64,000 nucleotides of DNA from Pocillopora verrucosa (lineage: Eukaryota; Cnidaria; Anthozoa; Scleractinia; Pocilloporidae), in assembly GCF_036669915.1 (NCBI RefSeq), contig NC_089313.1:12480292-12544291 (forward strand). Reading direction: 5' to 3'. A program made the position numbers and the translations under genes. This document shows, piece by piece, positions 2,400 through 46,548 of this stretch (position 1 is its first letter; every line of letters starts with the position of its first letter). The notes beneath the pieces were generated by a model. It worked only from the letters and a program-made list of their open reading frames with translations. It was not told where the DNA came from and searched no databases.

Positions 2400-5300
2400 A
2401 GTTGTTTTAACATTTTTAACAGTTTTCGCATTTTAATATCTTTCATATTTTTCATATTTTATCGTTTAATTCCTTTAATATTTTTATAGAATATTTTGTA
2501 AGGTGCTTTAGAATATTTTTATAATTTTGGTGCTCTAGAAATGTTAATTATCATTATTATTATTATTATTATTGTCCAAGACACACGAAAGCGGTGTGGA
2601 CCTATTTGTTTTGTAGAAGGCAAGATCAGGGAACACGACTTTCTACTCATTAAGAAGCAATTGATTTGGCTATTTTAAAAAACTTTAAAACTTGTTGAAT
2701 TGGTGACGAAAAAGAAGGTACCGTGTATGGCCTTACATCAAAATGGTCACCTTTCATAGCAATGCAGATGACTCTCATACAGAGTGCATCACTGCAGTGT
2801 GAGAGCAAATCTACTTGTATCACCGCTATTAAATATCGTCTTTAAACTTCTGTAAAGCCAGTGATAACTATTAAGATCATGGCAACACGTTCCTTGCTCA
2901 TCTTTAAGAATGTTTAATTCTTTCACAAGAGCGAACTTAATACCTTTCAACTCCTTGACCTTAAAAATAAGACGCTTGTATTCCCTATAGAAACACTTCA
3001 CACCTCCGCTTTAAATTAACCACCCTGGGAGGGTAAGGTTTTTTAATTCCTTACTTCCTTGGCACGAACGACAGTCAAATGCAGACGAGTCGTACCAGGC
3101 AGGAGGGGGGCAGGTTGAAACAACACATAAGCTCTTGTGCTTTATCATAAGAACTAGAATGTTTGTACGAATAAATTTAAGATAAATCAAATATTAGATG
3201 ACTCGCCTCGTTTGGCTCACCAAGTGTCCATATGTTCCCCAGACTTCGCCTTCGGCCACAAACACCGTAAACTAGAGGGAACTCACTCGATATTCATTTT
3301 TCTTCGAGGTCTTCATCCTCGTGAGGCCGTCCTCGCTTCATTATGACCCTTCCCATCACCAGCTAAAACCCTAACGGCATGAAATCTTTACTTGAAAATG
3401 CTTCCCAAGTCAAGAGTCAACCGGCGCAGTACAAGATTTCCAAGATCAGAGACGTGAACAACCCTCCGGCACTTTGGAAAGATGCTGATTTTTCGACCAA
3501 AAATAGCCCATTCTCCGAGTTAAGAGCTTCAACTTTTCTTTTGTAAAAAAACCTAGAGACTTAACAAAAAGATTCTGCCTACATTACGATTGCTACGATG
3601 CTAACCTCATTACCACAAAACAGCTGTTCAACCTGACACCTTAATGTAGATTTCGATCAAGAGACCAAGCCAGTATGTAAAATTCATTCTCAGACCTCTC
3701 GCATCATTGAAACCTTGTAATTTCAAGGATTTTGGGCTTCATTGGGACTCGAAAGACTAAGCGTAACTGTTTCGTAGGAGATTTATATGCCCCCACTTTT
3801 AACTTGCTAAAAGGTATAGATAATTGCTGTATTTAAAATTAGAAATTATCCACCTTAGTGCCTAGCGAGTTTTCCTGAATAGACCATTTTTTGTGCATTT
3901 TATGTTATTTTATTTTTCTGAGCAATAGATATGGCCCTCGCAAGAGGTTCATATGTTTTTAATAGCGCTTTATGAGATATTCTTAAATCATGTAGTCACA
4001 TATTTGTTCATCGTAAGCAGGTTAGATTTAGTTTTCTATTTCTTTACTTATTGTAAAGCGCTATTGGGCTAAATGGAAATGGCGCTACATAAATTTTGTA
4101 ATTATCATTATTAGTATTATAATTATTTCTGTTATAAATAATGCTGATTACAAGGCCTGTTCCCAGACGTTCTACTTCCTATGTAGAATAAGTACGTTTA
4201 GTAGTAGGCGCTGCGTGGTAGTAGGCAATATATTAGGATGGGTCAATCATCATTTGTAATAAAGTTCAAGCCCTTTCCTGCACTGACCGACAATACTATC
4301 CAACAGTTCCAAATCTCCAAACCTTGCAAAAAAATCCTTATGAGCAAGTGGCATTTAGTACAGCAGCAACCATTGCTAAGAGAAATCCTCAAAAAAACCG
4401 ATAATATCGTACAGAAACAAATGATCACTCAGACAAACTCGTGAGAGAAAATTACGAGGGCGAGAAAACTGAATATACCATGGTGTTTCGTGTAAACATT
4501 TGTAGCCAATACAGAGAAAACTGAACGTACTACTGAATCATTTAGGCATTTCAACCTCAATTTACACGGGAGCATTAATTAAGCCCGTTTCTAAAGCAAA
4601 TAAATACTTTTTTATGAGCTCGCCTATACCCGTCCCAACCCCTATCCTGCATTCAAATCGGAGTATGTCCCGGTCTCGCCTTCCTATCTTCATCCCGCAT
4701 CTCGCCTTTAAAGTATCTCGTATTCCACATCCCGCCTCGATTTTAGGCCCCATCCTGCATCCTGCCAAACCTATGTTGGACCCTCTCTACCACTTTCATT
4801 CAGTATACGGAATTCACTGTTGGATTTAATACACTGAGCACGCAGGAAATCTGCGGAGAGCGCGTTAAAGTTGTTAAAAATGTTTTGATTACCTTTATAA
4901 CTAAGATGCAGTCCTCCCTTGATTAAGCCAATTTCTGTGATCATTAGATGCTGGATTAGGTTTCCATCCATTCTGACGGCAGTAGCTCTTTAGATGTTTA
5001 TTCGCATCTTTCACTGCTCTATTGAATTCATCCCTTGTGGAAGTAAGCCTCGATATGGCGGAGGTGGAGTCGGATGAATTTTCGATTTGTCTATGATCGA
5101 TTCAGCATCTTGCAACTCTTTTTATATTTAAGGTTATTGGAGCCGACATAGAGAACGAACTGGTCCGGCGAATGCTTCAGGCTAGCTTTGAGGTTGGCCT
5201 TCATAGCTTTTGGGGTGGCCCTACAGAATAACTTGACCACTGCTCGATGGCCGACGGCTTTTTCTAGCTTTTTACAACATATATTTGTCTTTGTTAAGGA

Positions 5301-5996: not shown

Positions 5997-6406
5997 AAAT
6001 GACGGACAAAATGGCGGCGGTGGTGGTTTGCTGCTTGGGAACGGAGTATTTAAAAATGGCTGGAGCGTTACAATAACATGTATGGCACAATGAACTAAAT
6101 TGAAAAATAAAAATACCTCGAGATGCTGCACATGTTTCCCCGACCTCTCACTTTTTTTCAGAACATCTGACAAATTCGAAAATATAAATAGATAATCAAA
6201 GAGACTTCCTTGTAAGGTCCAAATGCATATCAAATAGGGTTTTTTTTTGCTCAAGTGTAACTCCTTCAAGTGTCTGAGATTTGTCTGAGATATCCTAATG
6301 TAGGATATCCATATTTCCTACATTACGTGGAGTTAGTGGTTGCGTACACCTGGAACCGAGAAAAACAAATGTTCGTCGCACTGGGGAAAGAGTTTGATAT
6401 GTAGCT

Positions 6407-7935
6407 TTGTGTTAACTGTAGTACTACTTGTACTTTCCTTTGACTTAAAATCGTGACATTAACTCGGATTCTCTTTTTCATCCAACAGATCATCTTCAAT
6501 GCGGGCGACCCAGTCTTTTATCTTTCTAATTGCTCAATAACTTCAAAGCCGGGCGTTGTTCGTTACTTTGAGTTCGTTATATTTCATCGTCTTTTGAAAA
6601 CTTTTGTGAGCAAATAAATTAAACATCCATGTCTAAAGGAACAAATATTTCAATTTTCAAAATATCATTATATAAAGTTTTTGTAAATATGTATGTAGCA
6701 TTATCATATTTAATAATTATTTGGTGACTTTTGACCAAATTTGTCAAAGTTGTTCATCTCTTTTTTATTCAAATAAACATGAGATGCAAATGAAGTACAT
6801 ACTTTCGAAGACAATATCAGTTTGAAAAAGTATGCTGGGATATGCATTCCGATTAGCGTGGTCCATGATGCACCATGTATTATTCACTGTAAAGGGTACT
6901 GGCAAACTGTTAGGCAAACTTCGTACTGATGAAGATAATCTCAGCTATGTAAATTTTGTCTGTTCACAAAAGAACACAGAGTACGCTGAATGTCGACACT
7001 TTTTCCTCAAACACTGAAACAAACATTGAAATGGGAGCATAACTTAGCATGACTATTGCCAACAAGAGCCTTACCTCGCATGAAGTGGCTTGGTCCTCTC
7101 AGTTCGGCAATTTTTACCCCAACATCAATCAGCACGTCTCTGCAATGTCTCTCTGATAAGAAAGGACATGCGCACAAAGAGTTACCTTTGGGTTTGACAA
7201 AATGTTCTCATCTGTCATCAAACCGATATCAACTTCTAGAGCGTAATTAGTTTTCAGCACCAACTGGAAAGCTGACGGATCATGTTTGTATTTCGATGGT
7301 GTATGAAAACAATTTACCTTTAAAGTTGAGTGTCGAAAGTAACTGACATCGCTTTGTGATTGGTCCTGAAAACTCGCACCATTCTTTCAACCAATCAGAT
7401 GCAAAACTAAAATCAATCACGAAATGGTCGTCCGCGCTTTCCCACGCTTCAGGCCGTTTGATTGCTATTATTTTATGTTCTCATGGGCTATAAAGGTTTT
7501 CTCCTTTCTTCTGATTGGCCGTCTGGGTTACTTTGGTCTTGGTTTCACGACACTCAATCGAAAAGCGCTTTAGATCGCATGCTCCGTTAATTTTCATCAT
7601 GTTTTCACTTATGAATACGTTTAGCCGATGGGTATCTTGACTTTAGTTTTGTCCTAGTTTTGTTAAGTTCGTAACCGAACTCTGAGTCTCCCAATCCTGC
7701 CAGCATGTAATCATTACAGTTATGAAAAAATCAGACTCTTGGAATACTTGCCTTGCCTTCACGACAAAACTGATACGCTAGCTCCTTGAAATTCGGCAAT
7801 GCACATCTGTAACAGAGCACACATTCCGAGTTGATATCATGGCATGCTGCATCTATAGAAGAAAATAAGAACGAATGCCTTAGCCTTCAGTTGTTGAGTT
7901 TACATTAAGCTGACTTTCAATAATAAGTTGGGAAA
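6407..7935 (-). pseudogene. Segmental copy of the CHFR 3' end, decayed
   Basis: This block is colinear with 13155-14675, which holds the last exons of CHFR (minus strand) and the last exon plus 3' flank of the convergent plus-strand gene. Introns are kept, so it arose by DNA duplication and not by retrocopying. The copy of the penultimate cysteine-rich exon (about 7750-7857, minus) still reads VLCYRCALPNFKELAYQF but has lost the following residues that end in LP in the original. The copy of the zinc-finger exon (about 7070-7145) meets an in-frame stop where the original reads ADCYWG. The final exon (about 6950-6970) lost the NHICEQ coding bases. No upstream CHFR exons accompany it, so it is a non-functional fragment. 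Confidence 0.8.
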
Positions 7936-8172
7936 ACAAGCAAACGTGACAAGCATCATAACTGGACCGGGGGTGGCTACATTTTACTAAAGGATGACAT
8001 TTTATAGAAGCCGGAGAATATTGAATAACCATTCCATGCTTTTTGATAGCAAACGCAGCAATGCTACTCTAGCAAACATAACTACGCCCCACACGTAGTA
8101 TCTGGTTTTCTAACTTCGTGAAAGGTGATTAAAATGTAAAAGAAATCCAGGGGATAAAAAGTTAATTTACCT

Positions 8173-8176
8173 AAAA
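8173..8176 (-). terminator. Pol III T-run terminator of tRNA-Arg
   Basis: Four T residues on the minus strand, 7 nt past the tRNA 3' end, match the minimal RNA polymerase III termination signal. Confidence 0.6.
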
Positions 8177-8182
8177 TAACAG

Positions 8183-8255
8183 CGACCCCGCCAGGATTCG
8201 AACCTGGAATCCCCTGATTCGTAGTCAGATGCCTTATCCATTGGGCCACGGGGCC
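8183..8255 (-). tRNA. tRNA-Arg (anticodon ACG)
   Basis: On the minus strand a 73-nt cloverleaf is complete: acceptor stem GGCCCCG with CGGGGTC (one G-T pair), a D arm containing TGGCCCAATGG (box A), an anticodon arm whose loop carries ACG, and a T arm with the canonical GGTTCGAATCC (box B) closed by five base pairs. The discriminator base is G. No intron is present and the CCA end is not encoded. A run of four T residues on the transcribed strand follows within about 10 nt (8173-8176), as expected for RNA polymerase III. No neighbouring tRNA genes are seen. Confidence 0.96.
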
Positions 8256-8276
8256 TTTCTCGAGCTACAGAGAGCA

Positions 8277-9930
8277 CTAAAGCAGAGAAATAAAAGGAGT
8301 ATTATGTTCTGAAATGACATCTAACCCAATCAAAAAACAACTATTTGAATAAATTGTTATTCTTGTTGTTGTTGTAATTGTTTGAATACAAAGCCTGAGA
8401 AACAAAGTATTTTCCGTTCTGCATGGTTTTTTCGTACTTTTTTCCCTGTACTTTGCATGAGATAAACAAGGCATGATTTAACCCTAACTATTAGTGCTTG
8501 ACTCCAGGCAAAACAAACTTCTTCCCGACTCGTCTCAAATATTCCAGCAGGCGGAGAAGCGTGTGTCTTGCAGCGTTCCGAATAACAAAGGCTAGCAGTC
8601 GACTAAAAACTACTCTTATGCACAAAGTACTATTTACCTATGATGACTGGTCTAATATACGATGCAAGTCTGACGCTAATGGCAAGAAAGCCGCAATCTT
8701 CCTCTGTTCTTTTAAAACCTACACATTCCAGTACAACAAGACGCATTAAGCCCTTAAGGTGAACGTCCATGAGCACAAACACGACTGAAAACGCCACCAT
8801 AGAGTTGTAGGATCCAACCAAGGGTAACAGAAGCAAGCAAATACAAAATATCTCGTTCCTAGTTAGTAGAGTTCAAAGATACCTAAAAAACTTGAATTTA
8901 AACCCGCTGACCTTACAAAAGAAGTGGTTGCGAAAGAACGTAGCAATTCCCGTGTAGCTGTACAGGAGGCTTACTCGGTCCGAAGATATGTTCAGTGTAC
9001 TTTCACAAAACTTCACCTATGTCGAAGAGAAAGACTAAACCCTTATCCCTTTTCTGCTTTCAGTAAAATAGAATCTGCTAGACGGGTTACATCACCTATC
9101 TGGGGTCCCCCACCTCTATGTAGACAGGCCCTAACATAGGATGGAACTCGTTCTTCGTTTTCGCTTACAAATTTTTACTTTTCTATAAATACTGGCATTC
9201 TTTTCGTTTTAAGCACAGGGCCATTTCTGAGTTTCTGATCAAACTAAATTAGTTATCACGTTTCCTCGAATAGGTGCCCGGATGCTTTTTCAAATTTCGG
9301 CTTAAAAAAGAAGGGGAGATTATTGCAAGGAAGGCACTTAATCGAAGTAAAACGGCAAAAAAAAAAGCTCTCAGGCGCATGAAATCGATGAATTTTAGCC
9401 GTTAGTCGTTAAAAAAAGTTCACCCTAAAAATTTCACTTTAAAACAATGCAAAGAAACCAGCCGGTAGCGGTAAAATGGCAGAAATTTAAATTGCTAGCC
9501 GGATAAGCTATCACCCTTCAAGTTCTAAGGAGTTACCTTGTTTTCGGAGTCTTTGCATTCATAATCGCTTGCTCTCTGAACACGGATTAGCCATTCTTTA
9601 AACAATGTACCAAATGCTCGCACATTTTGCTCTGGACTTAGGAAACCCACGCAATAATATTATTTCACTTCTGCTGAGAAAAGTTATATGTATGTCGTTG
9701 TCTGCTGATATTTTTACGTGTTATTCATTAACGTTATAAAAGCATTTTAATGTCCAGCTCTGGTGGAATAACGCTTCAAGAAAACTCTAGTGCCCAGACC
9801 TAATGCTTTAAATCCGGCGTGATGTCATGAAGTGACGGCATAAACACGTTTCCATGCAACTAGTCATAAACAAATCAAAACTTTCTTTCGCATCAAGAGC
9901 TCGGTTCATGCTAAAGCACCGTGAAAGAGA
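8277..9930. other. Intergenic region upstream of the coiled-coil gene
   Basis: Open frames here are short and unrecognisable. About 100 bp before the start codon at 9931 is a CRE-like tgatgtcatga (9820-9830), followed closely by tgacggca. These could be promoter elements of the downstream gene, but that is inference from position only. Confidence 0.4.
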
Positions 9931-12900
9931 ATGCATTTTTCTTGTTTATCGAATGGTTTGATTGAAGATGTCAGTTATAAAATGAACAAAAACAAGTCAG
10001 GTGACATAGACTTGGTTAGGAAATCCTGTTCTACGAGAATCTTTGATGAAGAAGTCAATGTCACAAATCGTTCTGCTGAGAATTATCATGAGCCTTTGGA
10101 GGCCTTACACGGGGCACGAATCATGGCTAATGAGGTGGGCGTTTCCTATCATTACACCTCCTTTTATTCGTTACAAAAGTACGTTTAGTTGTTTTAGAAG
10201 TTACAATTTGTTATCCGAAGGGGCATGAAAAAAAGAAGCTCAAGTGATTTTCGCAACAAACGCGCAACTAGACCTGATTCAATACAGAAGCTGTGAAAAT
10301 AGGTCGTAATTGGTTAATTTCAATTGTAAAACGATTCCCTCCAAAAGTAGCTCATTTCAAAGTCTGTCCAACATTGACGAAACATTTAACGCAACTAGAA
10401 CTTTTCTGCATTAAAGGCGTTCAGGTAACTGAGTTTAAAAAAACTTTTTCTTCGTGGAGAGATGAAAAAGCGCGCGCAAATGAAATTCCAAGATTATGAC
10501 GCCACTCTTCGACATTCCACTATCTTCACGCGGGATTGCAAGTTGATAATGTTTCTTATCCCAGCTTTTTTGCTCTCTTCTTATTTCGTTAATTAAAAAG
10601 ATACCATTTTTGACAATTTTTTTTTCCAGTCTGCAAGAGAAAAGGAACAAGCAACACAGAAGATCATCTATCTTGAAACAGAGATTAACGGTTAGTTTTA
10701 TGTGGCCACGCATGCATGAAAAGAAAAGTGCGCGCGGACTAGGAAGCCATTTTACTAAGAGTTGCCAATGCTCAACTGACAATAAGTCGTTTACCCCCTC
10801 CCTCCTTCCTCCTGTTTCTCGTTCCGTCATAGTTCCGTCTTTTGTGTTTTCCCGGTTAACTTTATCACTCAGACCTTGAATTTGTTCAAACGTTTATAAT
10901 AAGTAATTGTAACATTAATTTGTGTTTTAACAGCTAAAGAGAAGGAGATTGGCTTTCTTAAGCAAACTCTCTTTGAAAATGACAAAGACATTGCTGATCT
11001 TAAAGAAAAACTGTCCCAGCTAAAGCAAACTGTGCAAACAACTCAATCGGATTTTGTCAAGCACATGGCATCAATAGACGAAAAGCTACAGGAGGCAAAG
11101 AAGAACATTGCCGAGCTCGAAGGGGGCCTTAATTTTACTGTCCAGAAGAATAAAACAGAAGCAGAAGAGTCCCGGAGCAAACCACAAACGATTAATGGTG
11201 AGTATGCAAAGTGGGATGGCGTCGTATCAACTGAGTGGTGACAACGCGGTTGATACGAAGGCCTCGTCTTTGTGAACTCGTTTTATGTTCCAGGAAAGCG
11301 TTAGGGCACGTAATTAGAGAGGAAAGAGGGGTCTACATCACCTATCACCGAAAATAAATTGGTTCTTTCACAAGCTAAGGAAAATGAAACATACTCAAAA
11401 TCAACGAAATCAGCATTTACGGGCCTGACTTAAAAGTGTTTCCCATTTCTCTAAAGGCACAACTTGTAAATACCATTTTCCATCCTCAAGACAAGAAGAA
11501 CAATTTTACTCTGGCAACTTTTCAATAATCTTTTGATTATAATAAGAGTTCTTCCATGCACTTTGATTTTCATTTCTTCTTCTTCTTCTTCTTTTTTTTC
11601 GTTTTTTTTTCTCAACCAGGCAAAGTTTACTTTGACTTTCAACCATCATGGTTTGACACTCCATCCAACAACGGTGGATGTTTCAAAGTTGAAAACTTTC
11701 CAGTTACAGCAAAAGATCTTGAAGCCTTAAGGAATGTTAAATCAAATTCGAGGACCGTCACTGAGCAAGCTAAAGGTACGAAGAAGGAAACTTGTAAAAT
11801 AAGATTCTTCCACAGTCCACATCTGCGCGAAAGCAGTGTAGTCTTATGAGTCACAAACAGCTAGATACCTACGATTGATAACATGTTCTTCCGTACACCG
11901 GCTTTGATTTTTTAATTATTTTTTATCTAGGCAAAGATTATTTTGACCATCATCCATCGTGGTTTGACACTCTATCAAAAAACGCTGGATGTCTTGAAGT
12001 TGAAAATGTTCCAGTTAGAGCAAAAGATCTTGAAGCCAAGAAGAAAGGTTTGTAGAGGGAAACTTGTAAAATACGATTCTCATAAGTGATGGTCCAAATC
12101 TGTGCGAAGTAGTGTATTCTGAGAGTGACGAACCAATTAAGCCAATTAGAATTGTCGATGTACCCTTCAGCTTTACTTTTGCAATGTACTCGCCTGATTC
12201 TAATAAAATGAGCAACTTAATGAGGTGTTACATCACACAAATATATCACAGATTCCTCTGGTATTGAGGTCAACTTCTTTTCCAAGAAAACCAAAGTCGT
12301 AAAAAAACCAACACATATCCCTACTTCCAACTTTGTTTAGGCTCAAACTGTTATGATTTCTGCTGCATTCAAGACTCGTGGCTTATCCAGTCAGATCAAC
12401 CCTTTTTCGGAGGAGGTAGCTTAAATTGAAAAGAGTTAGCTTGCTCCCTTATCGAGTGCTCAAGGTTACGGTTTTTGCGGCGGTTTAGAATAAATGTCTC
12501 GCTGAAATTAATCCACTTTTGGTTCATTAAGCTAAAAACTCAGGTATCTTTATGTGGAAACGAAATTCTCTGCCTTGCCATCATGAAACAAAACTTCATT
12601 TATTTTATCTAGGCAAAGATTATTTCGACCTTCAACCATCATGGTTTGACACTCTATTGGAAAACGCTGGATGTCTTGAAGTTGAAAACTTTCCAGTCAA
12701 AGCAAAAGATCTTGAAGCCATGAAGAATGTTGAATCAAATTCAAAAGCCTTCACTGAGCCAGCTAATGGGTATGAAGAAGAGAACTTGTAAAATACGATT
12801 GCACATATTTAACAGTCCACATCTGTGCGAAGTGATGAAATATACGTGACAAACCAGTTAGACAATTAGAATTGCCAGTGTACCCTTCAGCTTTAGCAAA

Positions 12901-13268
12901 GTACTCGCCTAATCTTTTTTCAACTGTCTAAGGTGTCCATATCCTTACCATCGCCCATTACATCTTATTATGGCGAGCACTGTTTCCCGTGGAAAATATA
13001 AGTAAACTGTAAAATGCATGTTATAAGCTCCCGAAGTTGAACCATTGTCGCAAGATCTCGTAAGGTGTTTTGCCAGTAACACAATATACGGAAGTAAGTG
13101 TAGTGCTGTTCAGTAAATTAAATGCCAAAAATTTACCTGTCAATAATTTAGCATTGTGTTAACTGTAGTACTACCTGTACTTTCGTTTGACTTAAAATCG
13201 TCACATTGACTCGGATTCTCTTTTAACATTCCACAGATCATCGTCAATGCGGGCGACCAAGTCTTTAA
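9931..13268 (+). CDS. Coiled-coil protein of unknown function with triplicated exon
   Basis: Exons with consistent phases: 9931-10134 (ATG start, 68 codons), 10630-10690, 10934-11197, 11620-11775, 11931-12047, 12613 to about 12767, and a likely short last exon 13239-13268. Exons 2 and 3 encode a hydrophilic, heptad-like helix rich in K, E, Q and L, so a coiled coil is likely at about residues 69-176. Exons 4, 5 and 6 are tandem duplicates, each encoding a module of the form GKxYFDxxPSWFDT...GC.xVEN.PVxAKDLEA. Exons 4 and 5 start and end in phase 1 and could be skipped or included without changing frame; the end of exon 6 does not obviously keep that phase. Exon 6 can also read through to a stop at 12791. 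The last exon would give a tail DHRQCGRPSL then stop. I do not recognise the family. The gene converges on CHFR. Exon boundaries 1-5 are fairly secure; the 3' end is tentative. Confidence 0.6.
11620..12791 (+). repeat. Tandem exon-plus-intron duplication, three units
   Basis: Three similar exons (starting at 11620, 11931 and 12613), each preceded by a pyrimidine-rich acceptor, are followed by partly similar intronic DNA. The stretch 'gacgaaccaattaagccaattag' near 12127 recurs as a close variant near 12848 and more distantly near 11850. The duplication therefore took intron sequence with it and looks like unequal crossing-over, not retro-insertion. Confidence 0.8.
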
Positions 13269-13681
13269 TCTCTCTAATTGCTTAATACCTTCAAAGCCGG
13301 GCGTTGTCTGTAACTTTGAGTTCGTTATATTTCATCGTCTTTTGAAAACTTTTGTGAGCAACCATGTCTTAAGGAACAAAGATTTTAATTTTTGGAACAT
13401 CATTTTCAAAGCTTTTGTAAATAAGTATGTAGCATTGTCATATTTGATAATTACTTAGTGAATTTTGACCAAATTTGTAAAAATTGTTCATCTCTTTTTT
13501 ATTCAAATAAACATTAAAAACACGCAAATGAGGTGTTTCGAAGACAATATCAGTTTGAAAAAGTATGCTGCGATATATTTGTATTTTGATTAGTGTGGTC
13601 CATGATGCACCATGCATTATTTACTGTAATAGTTACTGGCAAACTGTTGGGCAAACTTCTTGCTGATAAAGATAATCTCAG

Positions 13682-16600
13682 CTATGTAAATCTTGTCTGT
13701 TCACAAATGTGATTGAAGCGACTGAAAACAAAAAGAACACAGAGTACGCTGAATATCAACACTTTTCCTCCAACCAGACACTGAAACGAGAGCATAACTT
13801 AGCATGACTATTGCCAACAAGAATCTTACCTTGCATGAAGTGGTTTAGTCCTCTGAGTTCGACAATGTTTACCCCAATAACAATCAGCACATCTATGCAC
13901 TGTCTCTGTGATCAGAAAGGACATGCGCACAAAGGGTTACCTTTGACTTGAACATAATGTTTTCATCTGTAATCAAACCGATATCAAAATTCTAGAACGT
14001 AATTGGTTTTCAGCTCCAACTGGACAGCTAATGGATCATGCTTGTACTTCGACGGTGTATTAAAGCAATTTACCATTGAGAGTGGAGAGTAATCCGAGAT
14101 CGCTTTGTGATTGGTCCAGAAAACTCCCACCATTCTCTCAACCAATCATATGCAAAACTAAAACCAACCTCGTCTTTATCGCTGGGATTGGCTCTTGAGG
14201 TTTTCTCCTTTCTTCTGGCGGTTGTCTGGATAGCTTTGGTTTTGATTTTACGAAACTCCATCGAAAAGCGCTCTAATCTCATGCTGTGTTATAGACTGCT
14301 GCGTCCATTTTTATCATGTTTTCACCTATGAATATGTTTAACCGATGGGTATCTTATCTCTGTAACTTTGTCCCAATTTTTTTTTGTTGGTAAACGAACT
14401 TTGAGTCTCCCAATCCCACCTGCATGTAATCATTAGAGTGATAAAAATAAAGACAGACTCCTGGGATACTTGCCTGGTAGCTGATCCATTGGTATGTCAC
14501 GACGAAACTGATACGCTAGCTCCTTGAAATTCCGCAATGCACATCTGTAACAGAGCACACTTTCTGAGTTGATATCATGGCTTGCTGCATCTATAGGAGG
14601 AAAATAACCAAGAATGCTTTAGTCTTCACTTGTGTTGAGGTTTAAGTTGAGTTGACTTCCAATAACATTAACCTGCGCTAACTCGAACCTTGCGCTAATC
14701 CGAACCAAACTTGGTCTCCCATGGATTTCTGTCTCACATCGACTGCAATGCACAAGAAAGCAAAAGCTTTAAGTCCCAAGAACATCTTTTAAGCTATTGC
14801 AAAGCCGCAAGAGGGGGGGGGGGGGGAAGGAGGGAGGGGGAAGAAGGATCCTGGAGTGACTGGAGTGCACTTAGCCCTTGCCTACAAACGCCAGAAGGTC
14901 GCTGGCGCTGGACACCCATCTCCCCCACCGCCCCTCCTCCTCTCCCTCACGAGAAGATCCCTCCTACACCTTAATAGACACTTCTACACTTCTACTTCAG
15001 ATCAAAAATAAAACGCACCACCCACCCACTGTCGTGTATTCTTTAGAGTCCAGCTTTAGCACACACTTCTGTAACAAGTCTTTTTCACAAATGTTTTGTT
15101 CGGTTAAGTAATCTTGTCGAGAATGAAAATGTTGACGTGTTAGCCTTTTCACTCACAGGTGTGACCAAAAGGGAATATTCCTTAAATATATCATTACAAT
15201 TTCAAGTACAAAGTGTTGAGAAGAAAGACCAATTAAACAAGGGAATATTATTGGATTAACGTTAATTTAATGCAGAGAATTGATAGTTATATTTTGGAGT
15301 GAAAGGGTTAGATTTCTTACTCATTGAGTCAAAAATTTTCCAGCCTGAGTCTCATTATTGAGGCTTCATCAAGGAGCTGGTGTTGGATAACTGTTTGAAA
15401 AATACCTTTTCATGAGGAAAAGTCCCTCAAAAAAAAAAATTTTAAAAAAAAACAATTTAGGGTAGCACTAAAGAGAATTCTTTGCTTCATTTACTTACGT
15501 TGTGCAAATTACACATTACACAATGATCACTAAAAAAGAAGACAATATCATAGACTACACATCAGGTAAATTTGCTCAAAAATAACAAAGTGGTCCCCCT
15601 GCCATTTCATGGGCTGAAACCAAGTCATGGTTCATAAACTGCAAGGTTAAAAAAAATGCATCTTGTTTTAAAGGATAATGGCACTATTCAAAACTTACCT
15701 TAAGTATTTTGGATCATATGGATTGTTGTTGATTATTACCAAGAAAGGGTCTCCAATACTGAAATCTGCCACAAATAAAAAATATATAATTATAATAATT
15801 ACAAGGCTATCAGAACAAATGTCTGGGGAAATAAACTTCAATGCACTAATCTATACATGCACCAGTATGTGCTTGTCTCACTTCTTTCAAACAATGTGGT
15901 TTGGATTTAGGACACAAATAAATACACACTTTAATTTAGTTGTAAAATATTTTGGTTACTATTCTTTACCGTTGAATTTATTGAGACATCCCAAACAGCC
16001 AATTCCATGACAGCCCCATAGCAAATGGCAAAATGCCTTTTGACAAACTGAACCTAAACCAATATTCCCACTAAAACACACGTTGACTCTTTGAACACTA
16101 AGAGTAAGCAGCACCTAGTTTTCTCCATAGAGTGGTACTGCTGAATCATTCATTAGGATCATGAAAATAAAGAAAAAGGAACACCAATCTAAGAAGCTTT
16201 GATTGTTAAACAAAATCTCCTTGCCAGTACCAAATGAAATGTGTAGAGAAGAGTAATGAGAATAAGGATACTGATTTTAGGGAGCAGAGGGTTAACCACT
16301 GTGGGAGACAGCTGATACATGTGTTAATGGAACACAGAGAATCTCGATTCTCCATGCAAGATCATATATAGGTAGCAGTACTGCAGGCAGTAAAATTTTA
16401 CCTGTTACTGCCTGAGAGGGAGAACATTTACACATCTCAAACTTACACTTCTGGGCAGGAATACTTGCTGTCATTGAATCAGGCCATCTGTGTGGCATTG
16501 GATGAAGACAGCACTGACATAGTATGTGGATCTGATCATGAGTACATGTGTAGTCAGGTGGTGTCACACTTGTTGATGCACCTTTCAACCAGATTAGTAA

Positions 16601-22600: not shown

Positions 22601-25600
22601 ACCTGAGAGTGGCATAGAGGGTTCTTTGTTCCCAAAAAGGGAAATTTAATACAGATAAAAACATTACCCACTGATATTCTAGGTATCTATGCTCAAAACT
22701 TTCAAGAAAAGCTGCTATAGCCAAATTGTGAAACCAAAACATAAGGTGATAGAGCTTTCTCTGTATACACTCCAAAGATTTGGAACACTTCCCTTGGATT
22801 TATGAAAATCTAGTACAGCTTTATCATTAAAGATAACACTCAAGACCTTCCCTCTTACTAAATTTACTAAGAGTAATTCTTCATTACATTTTTAATTTAT
22901 TGGATTCTACTTTTAAGGTTTATAGCTAGTTTTATTATCTAAGTTTCTTAGAGTGAAGTTGTGGATTTAGAGATAATTTTGTAAAGCATCTCCAACAAGT
23001 AGTGGATGTGTGCAATATACAAATGAACTATTATTATTATTGTTACATACAAGACACACAAGGAATAAACAAATCATAACTTGTAGAAATGGGCGGTTAA
23101 TTAGATGACCTATTATGAAGCCCTGAGGCAATGAATTCACCCAATTACAGACTTGAGGGAGACTTAAAATTCATAAGCTCCAAATTAAAGTCCTGCACCC
23201 AAAAACACCGAACCAAAATGTCCCATTTTAAATTTTTAACAGTTACATGGATACAGGACACAAGTGATTTTAAAGTCATGAATTTTAATGTACTGATTAC
23301 AAACTCTGGTAAGAAAAATATGACTAGATATGTTGTACAAATCTAAAGCAATTCTCTACCAAGGTCTTAAAATTTGGAACTCTCTTCCTGTTTCAGTCAC
23401 TTGTTTGTCAAATCTTTTTAGCTTTACAACGAAATTGCAAGAGTTTTTACCACACATTTGCAGCACTTATTCCCTTTTTAACTATTGTGTTGTAAGTCAG
23501 GTGGCCCTCCCCCATAAGCCCAGTGGCTACCTGGGTCTCCTCACTTTCTATAAATTATAATGCTGTAAAAAAATGTTGTATTGTTAAAAAGGAAAAAAAT
23601 AAATAATGAATGATGATGAATGATGATAATGATAATATCAGACTGAGTGTATGTAGAGGTTATGTATAAATCAGTTGGGTGTGTGGCTGCAGAGAGGGGT
23701 GAGGTGACAGGTTATTAATTCTGTTCAATTGATTAAACACAAAAGTAAGGGCTCCTGATTTCCAAGGTCTCTTTTCTTTCCTCTTTCTTGTTATGTGCAG
23801 GAGGACAGAGAAAACAACAGAGGACCATATGTCAGCATCATGACCTCCCATGTGGCAGAATTTACTACCAATAATTTAACTATCAATATAATGATATTCA
23901 CCATAATTGATCTTCTTATTGGTTATGCACTCTTCTTTTAACCCTTTAACCCCTGAGAGTGACTAGCATATAACTTCTCCCAACAGTATAACCCCTGCAT
24001 CACACAGTAAGGTCATGAGAATAAAGGAAATGATCACCAACTAAATATTCTCTTGATTGATAAACAAATTCTCCTTGTCAGCACCTTAAGAAATGTATAG
24101 AAAACAGTATGAAGAATATGCATACTGATGTTAGGGTGTAAAGGGTTAATACATGTACCTTCCAACTTCTAGTAAAGCTATTGAGATACCAAGTGAAATT
24201 TAATGGTTTTTGTTTACATGATTGATTATCGAACTGTTCATCATGATCTGTCTATTTCCCAGACTGTATGTACAATGAGTGGAAGCGCAGTGGCCTCATG
24301 GTTAGTCAACTCGACTCTGGGTCAAGTGGTCCAGGTTCGAGCCCTGGCTGGGGTCATTGTGTTGTGTTCTTAGGCAAGACACTTTACTCTCACAGTGCTT
24401 CTCTTCACCCAGGTGTACAAATGGGTACCAGCAAATATACTGGGGGTAAACCCTGATGGACTAGCATCCCATCCAGGGGGGAGTAGCAATACTCCTAGCT
24501 GCTTCATGCTAAAGGAAACCAAAGTTTAATGCCGGCCCCATGGGCCACTTGGGCCTGTATAAAGGCTTTTTACTTTATATGTACAGTATTTGTCTATCTC
24601 TTTATCTCTTTATAATTTGAGTCACTTCCTGTAATTTTAAATTTTGCACACAGACTTCATTAAACTATTATTATATAATTACCTTCTCTTTGTCAATTTT
24701 CTTCCCATTCAACAATGATCCATTGGTACTAACAAGAAAACAAAAGCTGTAAGTTACTAACACAAGTTTTAACACATGCAATAGTGTATATAGATCATTG
24801 CTGTGAGAAGTTTGCATGGAATTAAAAGCAATTTACTGAGTCACCTAAAGTCTTGAAGCCAAACTGTGCCACCTGGATCTCTTGTAATAGTACAGTGATG
24901 ACCAGATACAAATTTGCAGCCAGGAAAGCTGATATCACAATCTGTGAGATATAACATTAGATTCAGCTTTCTCTTGCAATGGGTGGGTACAGTGTATGTC
25001 ATAGCTGTCACAGCTGATACTAACATTGTAGTTGTAAAGCAAAGTTGTAAATAGAGGTTCTGCAGTTTATGACGGCTATGACAGGAGCCTTCTCACAATG
25101 CAAACTATTTTCTACGTAAGATCTCTGTGTAGTCCCTTACTGTTCTTAAACAAAGGCTGAGCATTACTCTTAAAGTAAAGTGAACTTTTGTTTCGTCACT
25201 GTTTCTTTCATCAAGAAACTGCATGCATAAGGAAGTATAGAGTAAATTACAATGTTTATGAAAATCTTGCCATCTTTTGTTATTGCATTCGAACACTTTG
25301 ATCGAATTAATTTATGAGAAATTTTTAATTGGTCATTTAGTTCACCATGATTGGAATGCAAGAGCTGAATATTGCTGTGTATTGAATAAACTCACATTCA
25401 ACAAAACCAAACCAAAACATATTAAAAAGAAATCTTTTGGGTTTCATCGCCATTTTTCCCTTTTTAAATACAAGTACGTATTCCATTTATCTCTAAGTCA
25501 TCCTTGGAAAGTGATCTGCCCTAAAGCTGCATGTTAACCATATAATATACAGAATAAAGAACCTAACTAGCTGATCGATTTCCCGTGTATACATTATATT

Positions 25601-30995: not shown

Positions 30996-33266
30996 CTACT
31001 CATAGATATGAACACAATGGTGCAGGACATCTGACACGACTATCCTTCCATTGCTCAGAACAGCCATGGAGACTGGATTACCCAAGAATCCAATACCCTC
31101 TCCTTTTATCTCAAACTTGGTCAGAAACTTTCCATTCAGAGTATCAAGAAGTTGAACTCTGTGATTCAATTTGTCACAGATCATCAATTGTTGTGCCTTG
31201 TCAACTGATAAGCAACATGGGTCATTGAACTGCTTGTTTCCCACCCCTTTACTACCATAACTGTTCAGTAACTTCCCTTCCCTATCAAACGTTTTGATAC
31301 AATGGTCACCCCTGTCTGACACAAAAAAATGGCTCCTGTATTGAATACAGTGACTGGGAGAGGTGAGCTGACCTTCACCGATTGTACGCAAAAGTTGTCC
31401 ACCAGGAGAAAATATCTTAACTAATTTTTCATTGCAATCAGGAACAATGATGTTTCCATCACTGTCGACAGATAAGCCACAAGGCTCTGTGGGACAGATA
31501 TCAGGATTAGAGTGGCCATGAAAATGGCTCAGGTACTCACCCTCCCCAGTGAAACATTGAATTCGCTGGTTACCACTTTCTGCCACAACAATATTGCCAT
31601 TTGCATCAAAGGCTATCCCAGAAGGCATGTGAAATTCCCCATGTTTATTTCCCTCTATACCAAAAGATCTTAAGTAAGTTCCATCACTACTGAATACCTG
31701 AACCCTATGGTTACCAAATCAGACACTGCAATTTCATCTCGTCCATTTACTGCCACTCCCAATGGCTCATTAAACATTCCATCAGAGGAACCTTGTACTC
31801 CAAAAGATGAGACGGGTCTGAACTGTCTGGATTTGGCTTTAACAGTAAAGGGACTTCCATGAACATGCTCACCATTGACTTTCACTGATATTGGTTTGCA
31901 ATACCAACAATCAATACAATACATGTAACTTATCTCGTAGGTTCCATCTCTGTTATTTTGGATTCGTGTATCCAGCATTCTTGAAAAATATGAAGAGTCC
32001 TCAACATCCACAGTGACACAGTCACCCTCTTCATAACACTGCTCACCCTTCCTATTTCTCGTTGTCAGCACAAGATTTGCATCGAGCCCTCTGTAAAATT
32101 CAGACACGCCTCTTCCATTGACGCATGACAGGTGCGGTCTCGTCTTTGTGGGAAAATACTTAAAAGTACCAATGTTTTCATCGCTCAAACTATCGAGTAA
32201 TTTTTTATTAATCGCGAAATCGTACTCCAAAAAAGGTACGCTGCTCGAAATAGCTGGGTCGTTGAGTTCATCAACTTGCTCCTTTGCTCTTTGTTGTAAC
32301 TTTTGATCGATATATGGGTTGGGCCGTATGATTTCAGCATCTGGGCTCTGTTTCAAAAGCGTTTCTGCTATTTCAATCGCTGTTTCGGTGATTGTCAACT
32401 CGTTTTCGCTTATTCCAACTTCAAGACGCTGGAGCGACTCTTCCGCCCGTTTTTTTTTTTTTTCACTTTTTGGATCATCTCCTTTTTTTTCGCTTCGATG
32501 ACTGATATCATTTTATCAGCAGATTCCTGAACGCTCCTCTCTACAAAGGCAGCGTTTCCATAAATCTGAAAGACATTCTCGTCAAAATGGCTCCTTTTAC
32601 TCTTTATTTTCTGTAATCTTTCTTTCTCAGTCTCAATCAAAGACTTCAATGCTATTCTGCGTTCATTTGCAACTTCTTCCAAAAGCGACTTCGCGTGGCC
32701 GTCATGATCTATCAAGGCACAAGCGTTGCAAATGGCGGCTTTACAGATCTCACAAAAGAGTTCGAGCTCTTTTTTTTCGTGTCCAAGCTTTGGACAAAAT
32801 ATTGATCGCTTCAAACTTCACTGATATCATGATCTTTAAATTCTTTGAGGGCCAACACGCGGTGCTCTTTATTAGCTCGGATAATGTTATGGGCGGAAAC
32901 ACACTCGTCACACCAGAAGGAACAACAATAGAAACAGTATGAACTTTGAGCGCTTCTCTCCTCGCAATTTCCACATCTTACTCCTAAAGTATCACATTCT
33001 TTGATAGCCAACACATCTAGCAAGCTGCTAATACGAAAGTTCGTGGGCAACTCTTCGAAGTTTCTACTTTTTGGAACTGCACTCTCTCTTCGGCAATCTG
33101 GGCATGTGATGATATCATGACGGCCACTCGTTCCTACAATATTCTTCAAGCAACGAAGGCAGAAACTGTGCAAACAGGGGAGCTGTTTTGGATCACTCAA
33201 TGTATTCATACACACAGAACAGGATACTTCTTTGTACAGATTGTCTAGCGAGGTTTTTACATCCAT
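30996..33266 (-). pseudogene. TRIM-NHL copy 1, frameshifted at three sites
   Basis: Intronless TRIM-NHL frame from an ATG at 33266, colinear with the intact gene at 39751-42006. The RING (CSVCMNTL ... [10 protein letters not shown] ... CPDCRRE), both B-boxes, coiled coil, filamin-type domain and NHL repeats are all present. Three single-base disruptions split it: near 32815 (gtttga where the intact gene has gtttta), near 32455 in a run of 14 T on the plus strand, and near 31722 (one base missing after the codons for VSD). Domains on either side are otherwise well preserved and contain no extra stops. It could be a functional gene with assembly indels or a very young pseudogene. As a gene it would be an E3 ligase or RNA-binding TRIM-NHL protein. 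A duplicated flank ties it to copy 2. Confidence 0.8.
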
Positions 33267-33368
33267 GGTCGAAAATTCACCGATTACCTTGAAGTACAAA
33301 CAAAGCTGACACGAGGATTCTAATATAAGTTGACATGCACATAATCGATGACCTATTAAGGATTTCAT

Positions 33369-33822
33369 TACCTTTGTTTTTTTTTTTTTTTTTTTGAAGG
33401 TATGTCATGCAATGCCCCTAAATTGTGTGCTCTTTGTGTCCAGTTAACAGGTTAAGATCATTTAGGAGTGGTATATTTCACTGCCTCTGTATCTTCTCAA
33501 CTCCAATGGGAGAAAATCGCGAGAAACCAGCAACAGTCGAACATGTATTAAGCCGTCACCCGGTCACCGCACTCGGCGGGCTGACCGCTTAAGGAGGCTC
33601 CACAGGGTTTTTGCTCAATGTTAGTGCGCGCGCCAGCGTAATGTTTTTCTAGAAAAGTTTTATGTTTTCGCATTTCAAGGTCACAAAAGCCGTCAATAGG
33701 CGATGGGTAAGGTTCGCACTAACGTTTTCTGCAGTAAATATAATATAATCAAATTGATGATTTGTTTTTGCCCTTGATTTTCTTCAATTTGCTTCGGTGA
33801 AATCTCTCTTTTCTTCTTTTTC
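33369..33822. other. 5' flank of TRIM-NHL copy 1
   Basis: Shares 'ggtatgtca(t/c)gcaatg' and 'ctcaactccaa(t/c)gggagaaa' with 38590-38720, the corresponding flank of copy 2. A poly-T run follows 33375. No gene is seen. Confidence 0.6.
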
Positions 33823-35164: not shown

Positions 35165-37472
35165 CTACTCGAAGATATGAACACAGTGGTGCAGGACATC
35201 TGACACGACTATCCTTCCATTGCTTAGAACAGCCATGGAGACTGGGTTACCCAAGCCTCCAATATCCTTTCCTTTTACCTCAAACTTGGTGTGAAACTTT
35301 CCACTCGGAATATCAAGGAGTTGAATTCTGTGATTTAATTTATCACAAATCATCAGGTGTCCAACCTTGTCAACTGATAAGCAACATGGGTCATTGAACT
35401 GCTTGTTTCCTACCCCTTTACTACCAAATTTCTTCAGAAACTTCCCTTCCTTATCAAACATTTTGATACCATGGTCACCCCTGTCTAACACAACAAAAAT
35501 ATTATTGTTTTGAATACAGTGAATTGGAAAGGTAAGGCAATCCCCACCAATTGTTCGCAAAAGCCGTCCACCAGGAAGAGAGTCTCTAATTAGTTTGTTT
35601 TGGCAGTCAGTAACAATGATGTTACCATCGCTGTCTACAGATAACCAGGAGGCTTGTTTGAACTAGAGTTTGCTAAAAAAATGGCTCAGGTACTTACCCT
35701 CCCCATTGAAAATTTGAATAAACTGGTTACCACTTTCCCCACTATAATGTTGTCATTTTTACCAAAGGCTATCCCAGAGGGTGTTTGAAATTGTCCCTGT
35801 CTATTTCCTCTTCACCAAGATCGTAAGTAAGTTCCATCACCACTAAATACCTGAACCCTATGGTTACCAGAATCAACACTGCAATTCATTTCATTCGTCT
35901 TCACTGCCACTCCACTTGGCCCATTAACATCCTTTTGAGGAACCTTGTTGCCAAAGACAAGACGGGTCTGACTCTCTGTGTTTGCTTCAACAGTAAATGA
36001 CTTCCATGAACATGTTCACCATTGATTTTCACTGATACAGGTCTGGTGTACCAGTTTTTACTGAAATGTAATCTTGTAGGTTCCATCTCTGTTATTTTGG
36101 ACCCGTGTCTCAATTTCTCTGCAAAATTGAAGCTTCCCTCTGTACCACGGTCACAGAGTCACCCTCTTCATAACATTGTTCACCCTTTCCGTTTTTCGTT
36201 GTCACCAATATGTTTGCCTCAAGCCCTATGCAAAATTCAGAGATGCCTCTTCCACTGACGCATGACAGATGTGGTCTCGTCATGGGGGAAAATACTTAAA
36301 AGTGCCAATGTTTTCATTGTTCATACTTTCGAAGAACTTCTGATTTTTCACGAAATCGTACCCCAAAAAGGATCACAGCTAAAGAAGCTGGTCGTTAAGT
36401 TCATCAACTTGCTCATCAGCTTCTGTTCTAACATTTGATCGATAATTTGTTGGCCGTATGATTTTCAGCATCTGGGCTCTGTTTCAAAGCGTTTCCGCCA
36501 TTCAAGCGCTGTTTCGGTGGTTTTCATCTCTCGCTCATTTTCGCTTCTTTAACCTCAAGACGCTGGAGAGACTCATTCGCCTGTTTTTTCACTTCTTCGA
36601 TCATCTCCTTTTCTTTCGCTCGATGACTGATTTAATTTTATCAGCAAATTGCTGCACGGGCCCCTTTTCTAACTATACAGCGTTTTCTCGAATATTGTGC
36701 ACTTTTCGTTCGTCAAAACTGGTTAATTTTTCTCTTCATCGTCTGTAATCTTTCTTGTCTCAGTCCTCAATCGAAGACTTCAACAACTTCCTCTGCGTTT
36801 CATTTTGCAACTTCTTCCAAAAGTCGTCTTGCGCGTGACCGTCGTGATCGAGCAAGGCACCTAAGCGTTGCATAACACCCCTGGCCCTGGCTTCACAGAT
36901 GACTCCCGCTTGGAAGTCTTTAGTTGTTTGACGTAGAAGATTATTCCAGCTACTCTTTTCTTTTTAGGGTCCTAGAGATGCTTTGGATCACTTGAAAACT
37001 GTTAACACGGATCGCTTCAGAACTTCACTAATGTCTTGATCCTCAAAGTCTTTGAGGGCCAACACGCGGTGTTCTTTATTAGCTCGGATAATGTTATGCG
37101 CGGAGACACACTCGTCACACCAGAAAGCACAACAATGAAAACAGTATGAACTTTGGGCGCTTCTCTCCTCACAATTTCCGCATTCACTCCTGAAGTATCA
37201 CATTCTTTGATAGCCAGCACATCTAGCAAGCTGTTGATACGAAAGTTGGTAGGCAATTTTTCGAGGTTTCCACTTTCTGGGACTTCACATTCTCTTCGGC
37301 AATCAGGGCATTTTATGATATCACGGCGGCCACTCGTTCGTAGAATATTCTTTAGGCAACGAAGACAGAAACTGTGTAAACAGGGGAGCTGTTTCGGATC
37401 ATCAAATGTATTCATACACACAGAACAAGATACTTCTTCGTACAGATTATCTAGCAAGGTTCTCACATCCAT
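35165..37472 (-). pseudogene. TRIM-NHL copy 2, heavily decayed
   Basis: From an ATG at 37472 the RING and first B-box region reads well (CSVCMNTF ... [14 protein letters not shown] ... CPDCRRE). About 36880-37010 is disrupted by extra sequence in the second B-box. The coiled coil and filamin parts (about 35900-36880) survive only as short frames in changing phases, with many single-base gains and losses. The last three NHL repeats (35165-35560) are again open. The number and spread of lesions make this a real pseudogene and not just a sequencing problem. It lies in the second unit of the tandem duplication and faces away from the intact copy. Confidence 0.9.
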
Positions 37473-37559
37473 GGTCAAGAATTCAATGGATTACCTTGAA
37501 GCGCAAACTGAAGCCGACACCTGCATTCTAACATTGACTGATGTGGACATGACCGATTA

Positions 37560-38191: not shown

Positions 38192-39750
38192 AATTTCATG
38201 GAAAGTTCTTGAACAATATTTGGTTCACTCGTTCTCTAACTCTAACTCGCGATTAAGAATCGTTTTGTGCTCACTTTCCATGGAATAATCTCTACATCAT
38301 CATATGATTCCTTTACAACAAGGGATATTGCCATACAATATTTCAGACTGGAATTACTGTTAAGACAGCTTCCTTTGCTTGTTTAATTTGTCTTGACATC
38401 CTCGCAATTCAGGTATCCTTCTGACATTAAGACTATTCAGGAGGAGCTTCAGCCGGCGTGGAGCCCAGACGGAGGAGAGAGCATTTGAGCGTTAGGCGTT
38501 TAAGTTGGAACAGTATACTCCGGACTCCCTCCTCCCGTATGTGCGCCTGCCGCACAGCATAGAGGACACGTCATGTTATCATGATTTCGTTGAAGGTATG
38601 TCACGCAATGTATCTATATTGTGTTCTGTTAGTGCCTAGTTAAGTCAATTAAGAGTGGTATATTCCACTTCCTCTATATCCTTTCAACTCCAACGGGAGA
38701 AATCACGAGAAACCAGTTACTGTAGTTCTCTTAAAGGGCAGCCCTCTGTCCGTAAACTTTATTAGGAAGCACACCTATCGAAGGGAACGTCGAACTGAAA
38801 AAAGCTAACACGTTTAGGACAAGGCTGGCAGAGATAAAGCAGAACTTTCAGAAAAACTAAACAAGACGTTTTAACACTAGGAAGAGTTATTGCACGAAAA
38901 ATTTAAGCATAAGTGACTAATATTGTAAAGCTCTAGACGCTCATGTATGGGGAAAACTTCCTCCAAAGTTAGTACAATATATTATAATACTGTAGTTTCT
39001 TCATAAACAACCTCTTTCCATATAATCGAACAGAAATTTCGAACACGCGTTCTCGAGGTGCTATATAGAAGAGAGCTACAAACTTCAAAATTTAAGACAG
39101 CTGTATTTGAAATAACTCGATTTCAGGTCTATTAAAGTAAGTAATTAAATGGTTAATCTGCATGGATGGATTGTGTTTTGTAATTATGTTCTGAGCCAAA
39201 CGCTGCAGGTTGCCAGATCTGTTTATAGGTTTACTTCTTAGTGACCAACCGTCAACCAAAATGTATTAATGCACGGTGACTGAGGCAAACTCGTTCTCAA
39301 CATAAATTTTCTTCTCACTACGTAAACGATGGGCTCTATTTGTACTACATCTGTTCCGAGAGGCAAGCAACTGTGCGAGATTCAAAGAAAACTGTAAGTT
39401 TTAAGGAAGAAGTAAATGGCCATGGGGAGAAATATGAGCATAGTTTCGCGTCAAATGAAGGATACCGTGTTTATCATCTTCGACGCAATTTTTCCAGCGC
39501 ACGGTATCTAGAATCGAGTTTTCAAACGAAGACGTTCTTCGTAAAAGTTCAGAAATTTGGGAATGTTACATGGGAATACGTCAGGACCAGAGAATAAATT
39601 CCCTTGTTTAGGATAATCCACAGTTCTGCATAGGGCATATTTCGTTACATGGCGTGTCTTAGCCAATCAAGAAAAATAAGATTGCATGTTCCATGTCACA
39701 TGGATATTTTGACTTAAATTTCAGGCTTCGAAAAAGTTGGCTAGTCTATC
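37560..39750. other. Divergent spacer between TRIM-NHL copies 2 and 3
   Basis: Holds the 5' flank of copy 2 (near 38590-38720), an (AT)n microsatellite, and a block near 38660-39200 that recurs near 44110-45400. A plus-strand 85-codon frame at 39340-39597 shows no known domain. A good splice acceptor (tttcag at 39718-39723) just before the copy 3 start suggests a 5' UTR intron; the donor was not identified. Confidence 0.55.
38134..38184. repeat. (AT)n microsatellite
   Basis: About 25 uninterrupted AT units. Confidence 0.97.
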
Positions 39751-45500: not shown

Positions 45501-46188
45501 ATAGAGTTATTTCAGCTGTTTTGTGGCTAATGGTCCACGATGGGTTAGGTAAACAAAACAAAAAAAACAGAAAAAAAAAAAAAAAACGAGACAAGGTAGG
45601 GGAGTGTTAAAATAAATGAGATTTGAATATGCAGCCCCTGTGACTGAATCGTGATGCAGGACGAGGACTGAAAAGTGGACCAGTCCAAAATAACCAATCA
45701 CAAAGTGAAAATGTAATTAGTCGGCGCAGCTCGTCAAGCACGGTGTAATCCATCGCATATCGGCTATCAAACACCTAGGGATCTGTAAATAGCAACAAAT
45801 TATGAAATTTAAATCAGGAAAGATCAATATTGTGTGCGACGTGATTATGTTTTCATGAGAGAGACAAGGTGCTCGTGACGACATAACACGAAAATTTTGA
45901 AGTCAGCTACCTATGAGATCTTGTTTGCGATTGGCTGTCGCGTTCGATTTCTTGACATGTTTCAAGCCGTGTTTTGATTTTTCCAGTCCATGTCAGGCCT
46001 GCCTGCGATTGGTTTAAATTTGTCACCAAGTTTGCACAGCTGCGAGTTAGAAACCCGCGTAGCGAGAGCACTTGGACAAAACACAGTTGCTTCCGCGCGC
46101 GGCCAAATACCTTCACAGCTTTCAAGCGACGAACATCTGTGAGCTCTTTCGATCGTTGCTTCGTCGTTGCTTCACACCAAACGCTAGA
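42506..46188. other. Intergenic region upstream of the ID gene
   Basis: No gene recognised. From about 44110 to 45400 parts are homologous to 38660-39200 ('cgcaagaaacca', 'tccataaac...atgaagcaca', then 'aagggaacg', 'gcagaa(t/c)tttcag', 'ctggacgctc'), interrupted by unrelated sequence in the middle. A minus-strand frame at 43465-43710 has no known motif. Confidence 0.5.
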
Positions 46189-46548
46189 ATGAAGCCTCAA
46201 TCCACAAAGTCTGGCCTTCACGCCGGGGAGGATTCCCTGCGTTCAACTACGACAACGACTTCAAGTATTTCTAGGGCTCGTGCGCGCGATACCAGTGTTT
46301 CACATCTCGAGCAAGGCTGTATTTACAACATGGACGACTGCTACGCGAGGCTCAGAGCCATGGTACCGCACATCCCTGCTAACAGAAGGATGAGTAAAGT
46401 CGAAATTCTACAGCACGTTATTGACTACATTCAGGATCTCGAGTCTGCTTTGGAACTGCCGAATCTCCAAATAAACAACTTTGTAAAGAATTCAGCCGAT
46501 AAGAAGACTAGTCGAGTTCCGCTTAAGACAATTTCTTACAACCGCTGA
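46189..46548 (+). CDS. ID-type helix-loop-helix protein (inhibitor of DNA binding)
   Basis: 119 codons from the ATG at 46189; an earlier in-frame ATG at 46072 lies in sequence without similarity and was not chosen. Residues 51-90 form the helix-loop-helix: [13 protein letters not shown], then the loop, then [18 protein letters not shown], nearly identical in pattern to vertebrate ID1-ID4. No basic DNA-binding stretch precedes helix 1 (it reads GCIYNMDD). In this family that means the protein pairs with E-protein bHLH factors and blocks their DNA binding. The N-terminal 45 residues are Ser/Thr-rich with a short Arg/Ala stretch. The stop is followed 8 bp later by a good donor (gag|gtagg at 46556), and a pyrimidine-rich acceptor occurs at 47558, so a 3' UTR intron is likely, in keeping with ID genes having an intron close to the 3' end of the coding region. 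Confidence 0.93.

Follow-up and report, generated by a model that had tools for sequence, protein, structure and literature searches.

A probable coiled-coil protein gene of Pocillopora verrucosa with three tandem copies of a short module exon

Results

Gene model and its immediate surroundings

The window analysed here, a 64,000-nucleotide stretch of DNA from the coral Pocillopora verrucosa, contains a plus-strand locus that we modelled as a gene of seven exons at 9931-13285, encoding 335 amino acids and with GT-AG at every intron (Table 1). Translation would begin at an ATG with A at -3, and there is a TGA in frame at 9922-9924. Two boundaries differ from those of an earlier, sequence-only reading of the same DNA. 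The gene end that it gave, 13268, precedes the stop codon of the model, which ends at 13285, and the third module exon, which it had closed at 12767 where no GT follows, ends two bases later at 12769. The phase 1-1 flanks that it assigned to the exons at 11620-11775 and 11931-12047 hold in the gene model.

Table 1. Coordinates of the exons of the model and of the features associated with them, as positions in the window.
Feature	Position	Strand	Remarks
Upstream copy of the exon 7/3' UTR segment	6399-7923		79% by blastn
Exon 1	9931-10134	+	68 codons; N-terminal region; top codon score of six frames
Exon 2	10630-10690	+	phase 0-1; predicted coiled coil begins
Exon 3	10934-11197	+	phase 1-1; main predicted coiled coil (simple heptad count)
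Exon 4, module copy 1	11620-11775	+	156 nt, phase 1-1
Exon 5, module copy 2	11931-12047	+	117 nt, phase 1-1; weak donor GTTTGT
Exon 6, module copy 3	12613-12769	+	157 nt, phase 1-2; weak donor TGG/GTATGA (slash marks the exon end)
Segment with exon 7, likely 3' UTR and possible minus-strand exons	13146-14665		duplicated at 6399-7923
Exon 7	13237-13285	+	predicted last exon with acceptor and stop; least certain of the seven
AATAAA polyadenylation-signal-like hexamer	13506-13511	+	also kept in the duplicated upstream copy

The gene is flanked by a direct duplication of 1.5 kb, in which 24 of the 27 sixty-column blocks are 80-95% identical when gap columns are excluded. Searching the window by tblastn with the whole protein found no second copy of exons 1-6. 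One gap-free block of 60 columns in the duplication (from 7766 and 14504, respectively) is 95% identical, with the minus strand open in both copies, and may mark a minus-strand exon; identity elsewhere in the duplication runs from 64% to 98% per block, so that the conservation of this block does little by itself to support such an exon.

Three copies of one module exon

The sequence-only reading had described exons 4-6 as three tandem copies of the same module, and this is borne out at the positions that it gave: a family of 171-nt direct repeats starts at 11606, 11917 and 12599, with the second copy 67% and the third 82% identical to the first. Each module, used as a tblastn query, retrieves the other two copies (E 4.7e-15 to 8e-22), and no further match below E 0.20 was obtained in the whole window. 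The copies share a core of 36 residues, GK.YFD..PSWFDT...N.GC..VEN.PV.AKDLEA, with 25 of the 36 columns invariant.

At the nucleotide level, the core is 85-90% identical between copies (91/107, 92/107 and, for copies 2 and 3, the closest pair, 96/107), compared with 69-78% for the adjacent downstream intron (66/96, 74/96 and 79/102). One-sided Fisher tests of this difference give p values of 0.0045, 0.072 and 0.013, for pairs that are not independent of each other. The core is free of indels in all three pairs; the intron alignments contain 5, 3 and 3 indel events per approximately 110 columns. The 13 codons of exon tail that follow the core are identical at 38 of 49 positions between copies 1 and 3, which is approximately the intron level, and this 39-nt tail is missing from copy 2. 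Copy 3 carries one extra base beside its donor relative to copy 1, giving it an exit phase of 2 instead of 1. Because homology runs beyond the exon into the next intron, the copied unit comprised exon plus intron. The repeat expansion that had been proposed as a source of the variant copies is thus upheld, in the form of adjacent homologous exons duplicated in tandem together with flanking intron.

Predicted coiled coil upstream of the modules

From its predicted sequence, the part of the protein that precedes the modules probably forms a coiled coil. A heptad count gave best-frame hydrophobic a/d fractions of 0.75-1.00 for exon 3 windows (residues 85-161), although the count is lax and was made without a shuffled control, and module windows also reach 0.75. 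Searching Pfam with the whole protein returned 45 matches at E up to 5, with weak coiled-coil-type families among the best 25. None of these best 25 attains its own cut-off, the top match, SlyX (E 0.00057), scoring 20.9 bits where 30 are required. Inside residues 38-181, N-terminal to the first module or just touching it, lie 24 of the 25; DFRP_C (E 0.11) spans residues 159-194 and so enters the first module. We take the Pfam matches as a reflection of coiled-coil composition. No signal peptide was seen by eye, and the protein is probably intracellular.

Splicing of the module exons and selection on the core

Skipping of module exons in frame, as had been suggested, would be possible on the predicted structure, as exon 4, exon 5 or both can be removed with the frame reaching the same stop. 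The three translated patterns that omit exon 6 (exon 6 alone, exons 5 and 6, or exons 4, 5 and 6) place exon 7 in a different frame, where it ends after ten residues. Since that stop still falls within the last exon, such a transcript would not need to be degraded.

The further suggestion of mutually exclusive splicing found no clear support. The lengths of exons 4 and 5 are each divisible by three, which leaves the reading frame imposing no choice between them and keeps their joint inclusion in frame. A steric limit on short introns is one mechanism by which exons become mutually exclusive; intron 4, between exons 4 and 5, is 155 nt long. Pairing between introns, assessed for six pairs against 60 shuffles each, gave z values from -1.85 to +0.96 and was not clearly above the shuffles. 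For the pairings of intron 4 with intron 6 and of intron 5 with intron 6, 3 and 4 of the 60 shuffles were as low, counts that are uncorrected for the six pairs tested. On a donor scoring matrix, exons 1 to 6 reach 3.4, 2.3, 6.3, 3.5, 1.5 and 0.2 bits in turn, the donors after exons 5 and 6 being the weakest of the gene.

Over the core, dN/dS is 0.54, 0.57 and 0.28 in the three pairs of copies (Fisher p 0.33, 0.48 and 0.054), in no case significantly below 1, and it rises to 0.66, 0.68 and 0.36 if every shared codon is counted. Pooled core changes amount to 8 synonymous and 14 nonsynonymous, with P 0.08-0.23 under neutrality, and are therefore compatible with it. Comparison of the copies makes constraint on the core likely; the codon tests fall short of proof.

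These measurements bear on an alternative in which copies 2 and 3 are decaying by-products of duplication within a real gene: dispensable, and skipped, retained or degrading. We regard this as possible, on the unlikely side of even. It would account for dN/dS not falling significantly below 1, for the loss of 39 nt from copy 2, for the single-nucleotide, phase-changing difference in copy 3 and for the weakness of the two donors concerned among the six, but it sits poorly with three copies that are all open, with the indel-free core and with a core that exceeds the adjacent intron in conservation in all three pairs (p < 0.05 in two of them).

Family searches and predicted fold of the module

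Up to E 5 in Pfam, and up to E 10 in PHROGs and NCBIfam, no family matched any of the three modules. The PDB gave nothing credible: its one weak match, a cellobiosidase (joined modules, E 0.6; profile, E 0.65), is taken as chance. Among the viral contigs of IMG/VR, 26 stretches fit one of two short peptide patterns, of which 0/26 were confirmed (tblastn, E 1e-3), and among GTDB genomes 0/56 pattern matches were confirmed as relatives of the module. The assertion that the module belongs to no catalogued family accordingly stands within the collections searched; these hold few or no animal proteins, so finding no known family there carries less weight than it might seem to. Four longer module strings occurred in no paper of the collection searched, and no such gene is named in the titles or opening lines of the abstracts among the topical matches listed.

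AlphaFold, run on the module with an alignment of three rows, gave no confident fold (mean pLDDT 58.7, pTM 0.22), and the description of the module as compact is not sustained by this shallow-alignment model. The alignment is so shallow that the low-confidence model does not show the module to be unfolded either. It contains two helices (residues 10-17 and 31-46) and no strand; the second helix covers AKDLEA, in agreement with the helix that had been predicted there, and the strand predicted at VEN.PV is not modelled.

A second alternative takes the module for an animal domain or motif not yet described, present in further proteins too, whose copies increased in number in this gene and may be subject to regulated alternative splicing. 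The lack of any match for the three modules in Pfam, PHROGs and NCBIfam, or of a credible one in the PDB, is what such a domain would produce, and constraint on the core is likewise in its favour. Nevertheless, we consider it doubtful, given the low-confidence fold and given that no second family member was seen in the collections searched, with their few or no animal proteins.

Coding potential

Codon scores were computed relative to the TRIM-type open frames within the same window (1275 codons). Exons 1-6, six of the seven, score best in the predicted frame among six; exon 7 scores poorly there. Joined together, exons 1-6 outscore 99.4% of 3000 stretches drawn at random from the window, in a control that allowed stops; compared one by one with pieces of the window that lack stops, they reach only a modest 79.5th-96.8th percentile. 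We conclude that the locus is probably a protein-coding gene with a genuine tandem exon duplication. That there is no gene, and that three copies of a non-coding repeat are open by chance, seems very unlikely to us: such a repeat would explain why the copies continue into the intron, the modest percentiles of the single exons and the weak donors, but would have no reason to keep the core free of indels, the coding frame best in six of seven exons, and the splice sites and phases consistent.

Resemblance to alphaB-crystallin

As printed in published work, the PSWFDT of the module is also found as six residues of alphaB-crystallin (HSPB5), in the stretch before the alpha-crystallin domain. For a module-crystallin alignment that takes in PSWFDT, the score is matched by only 1 to 29 of 5000 shuffled modules; for the part downstream of PSWFDT, it is matched by 2879 to 4996 of 5000 (six tests). 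Similarly, hhalign gave 69.8% for module versus crystallin over 10 columns and 0.2% once the PSWFDT stretch had been removed from the crystallin. We rejected homology on these grounds, the resemblance stopping at six identical residues with no significant similarity beyond them and no HSP20 being reported by Pfam for the modules. A derivation of the module from part of a small heat shock (alpha-crystallin) protein, to which the shared hexapeptide with its rare shuffles and the ten hhalign columns lend some appearance, is scarcely credible when the score vanishes without that stretch and Pfam reports no HSP20 for any of the three modules.

Discussion

The reading that we prefer, with a probability of roughly 0.5, is that the gene encodes an oligomeric adaptor with a coiled coil, and that duplication of an exon has multiplied a short motif at its C-terminus. 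The exon encoding the C-terminal module was duplicated in tandem, twice, along with the start of the following intron. The coiled coil would assemble the protein into a dimer or oligomer, in which the repeated 36-residue core could serve as a short ligand bound by a partner, each extra copy adding to the binding sites. Skipping of exon 4, exon 5 or both might then tune the number of motifs from one to three. The duplication of the exon, the open frames, the phases of the exons and the higher conservation of the core than of the neighbouring intron are seen directly in the sequence; expression, oligomerisation, binding and the effect of copy number are what we infer here, and no result obtained points to a binding partner of the module.

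What argues for the adaptor is the presence of three copies including intron, the indel-free core and its higher identity than that of the adjacent intron, the codon scores, the heptads of exon 3 and the symmetric exons 4 and 5. It is weakened by dN/dS values that are not significantly below 1, by pooled changes compatible with neutrality, by the weak donors of exons 5 and 6, by the poor score of exon 7, by the modest percentiles of single exons and by the lack of a confident fold. A more ambitious version makes the core a peptide-binding or ligand module of animals that has yet to be described, with exon skipping setting one to three copies per oligomer; we hold this to be unlikely. In plainer terms, we are probably dealing with an unremarkable duplication of exons in a gene about which little is known, and nothing so far indicates a new domain or special splicing.

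Another way to view the locus is by comparison with other duplicated exons and genes. As in other genes with tandemly duplicated symmetric exons, adjacent copies have been duplicated with intron, and two of the three here are phase 1-1; the third copy, however, is phase 1-2 through a one-nucleotide difference at its donor. Clusters of mutually exclusive exons, such as those of Dscam, consist of tandem homologous exons that vary around a common core. The gene described here has this arrangement in common with them, but differs in having no choice forced by the frame, an intron of 155 nt and no clear pairing between introns. For coral genomes, tandem duplication of genes, with introns less conserved than exons, is described in PMC10236652. 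Local duplication and the lower conservation of introns are alike in the two cases; the duplications described there are of whole genes, whereas here they concern exons within one gene and a separate 3' segment.

The significance of the locus, otherwise modest, depends on whether the module recurs. Its recurrence in animal proteins besides this one would establish a new short family and turn the gene into a natural series of one, two and three copies for testing how a coiled-coil adaptor binds multivalently. Without such recurrence, the locus would be a routine case of duplicated exons in a gene with poor annotation.

Other features of the window

Just upstream of the gene lies a tRNA-Arg (ACG) at 8182-8255 on the minus strand, with which Rfam agrees; Rfam reported nothing besides this tRNA in 6000-15000. 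A tRNA-Gln is present at 24284-24355 and another tRNA, of unassigned type, at 58365-58438. TRIM-type sequences, whose domains point to animal DNA, occur at three places. That at 39745-42006 (+) is one open frame of 753 amino acids with matches to RING, B-box, Filamin and NHL. Those on the minus strand are each spread over several frames, with RING, Filamin and NHL at 30996-33404 (B-box below cut-off) and RING and NHL, in two scanned pieces, at 35165-37490. An open frame at 46066-46545 (+) matches the HLH (helix-loop-helix) domain of Pfam at E 2.2e-14.
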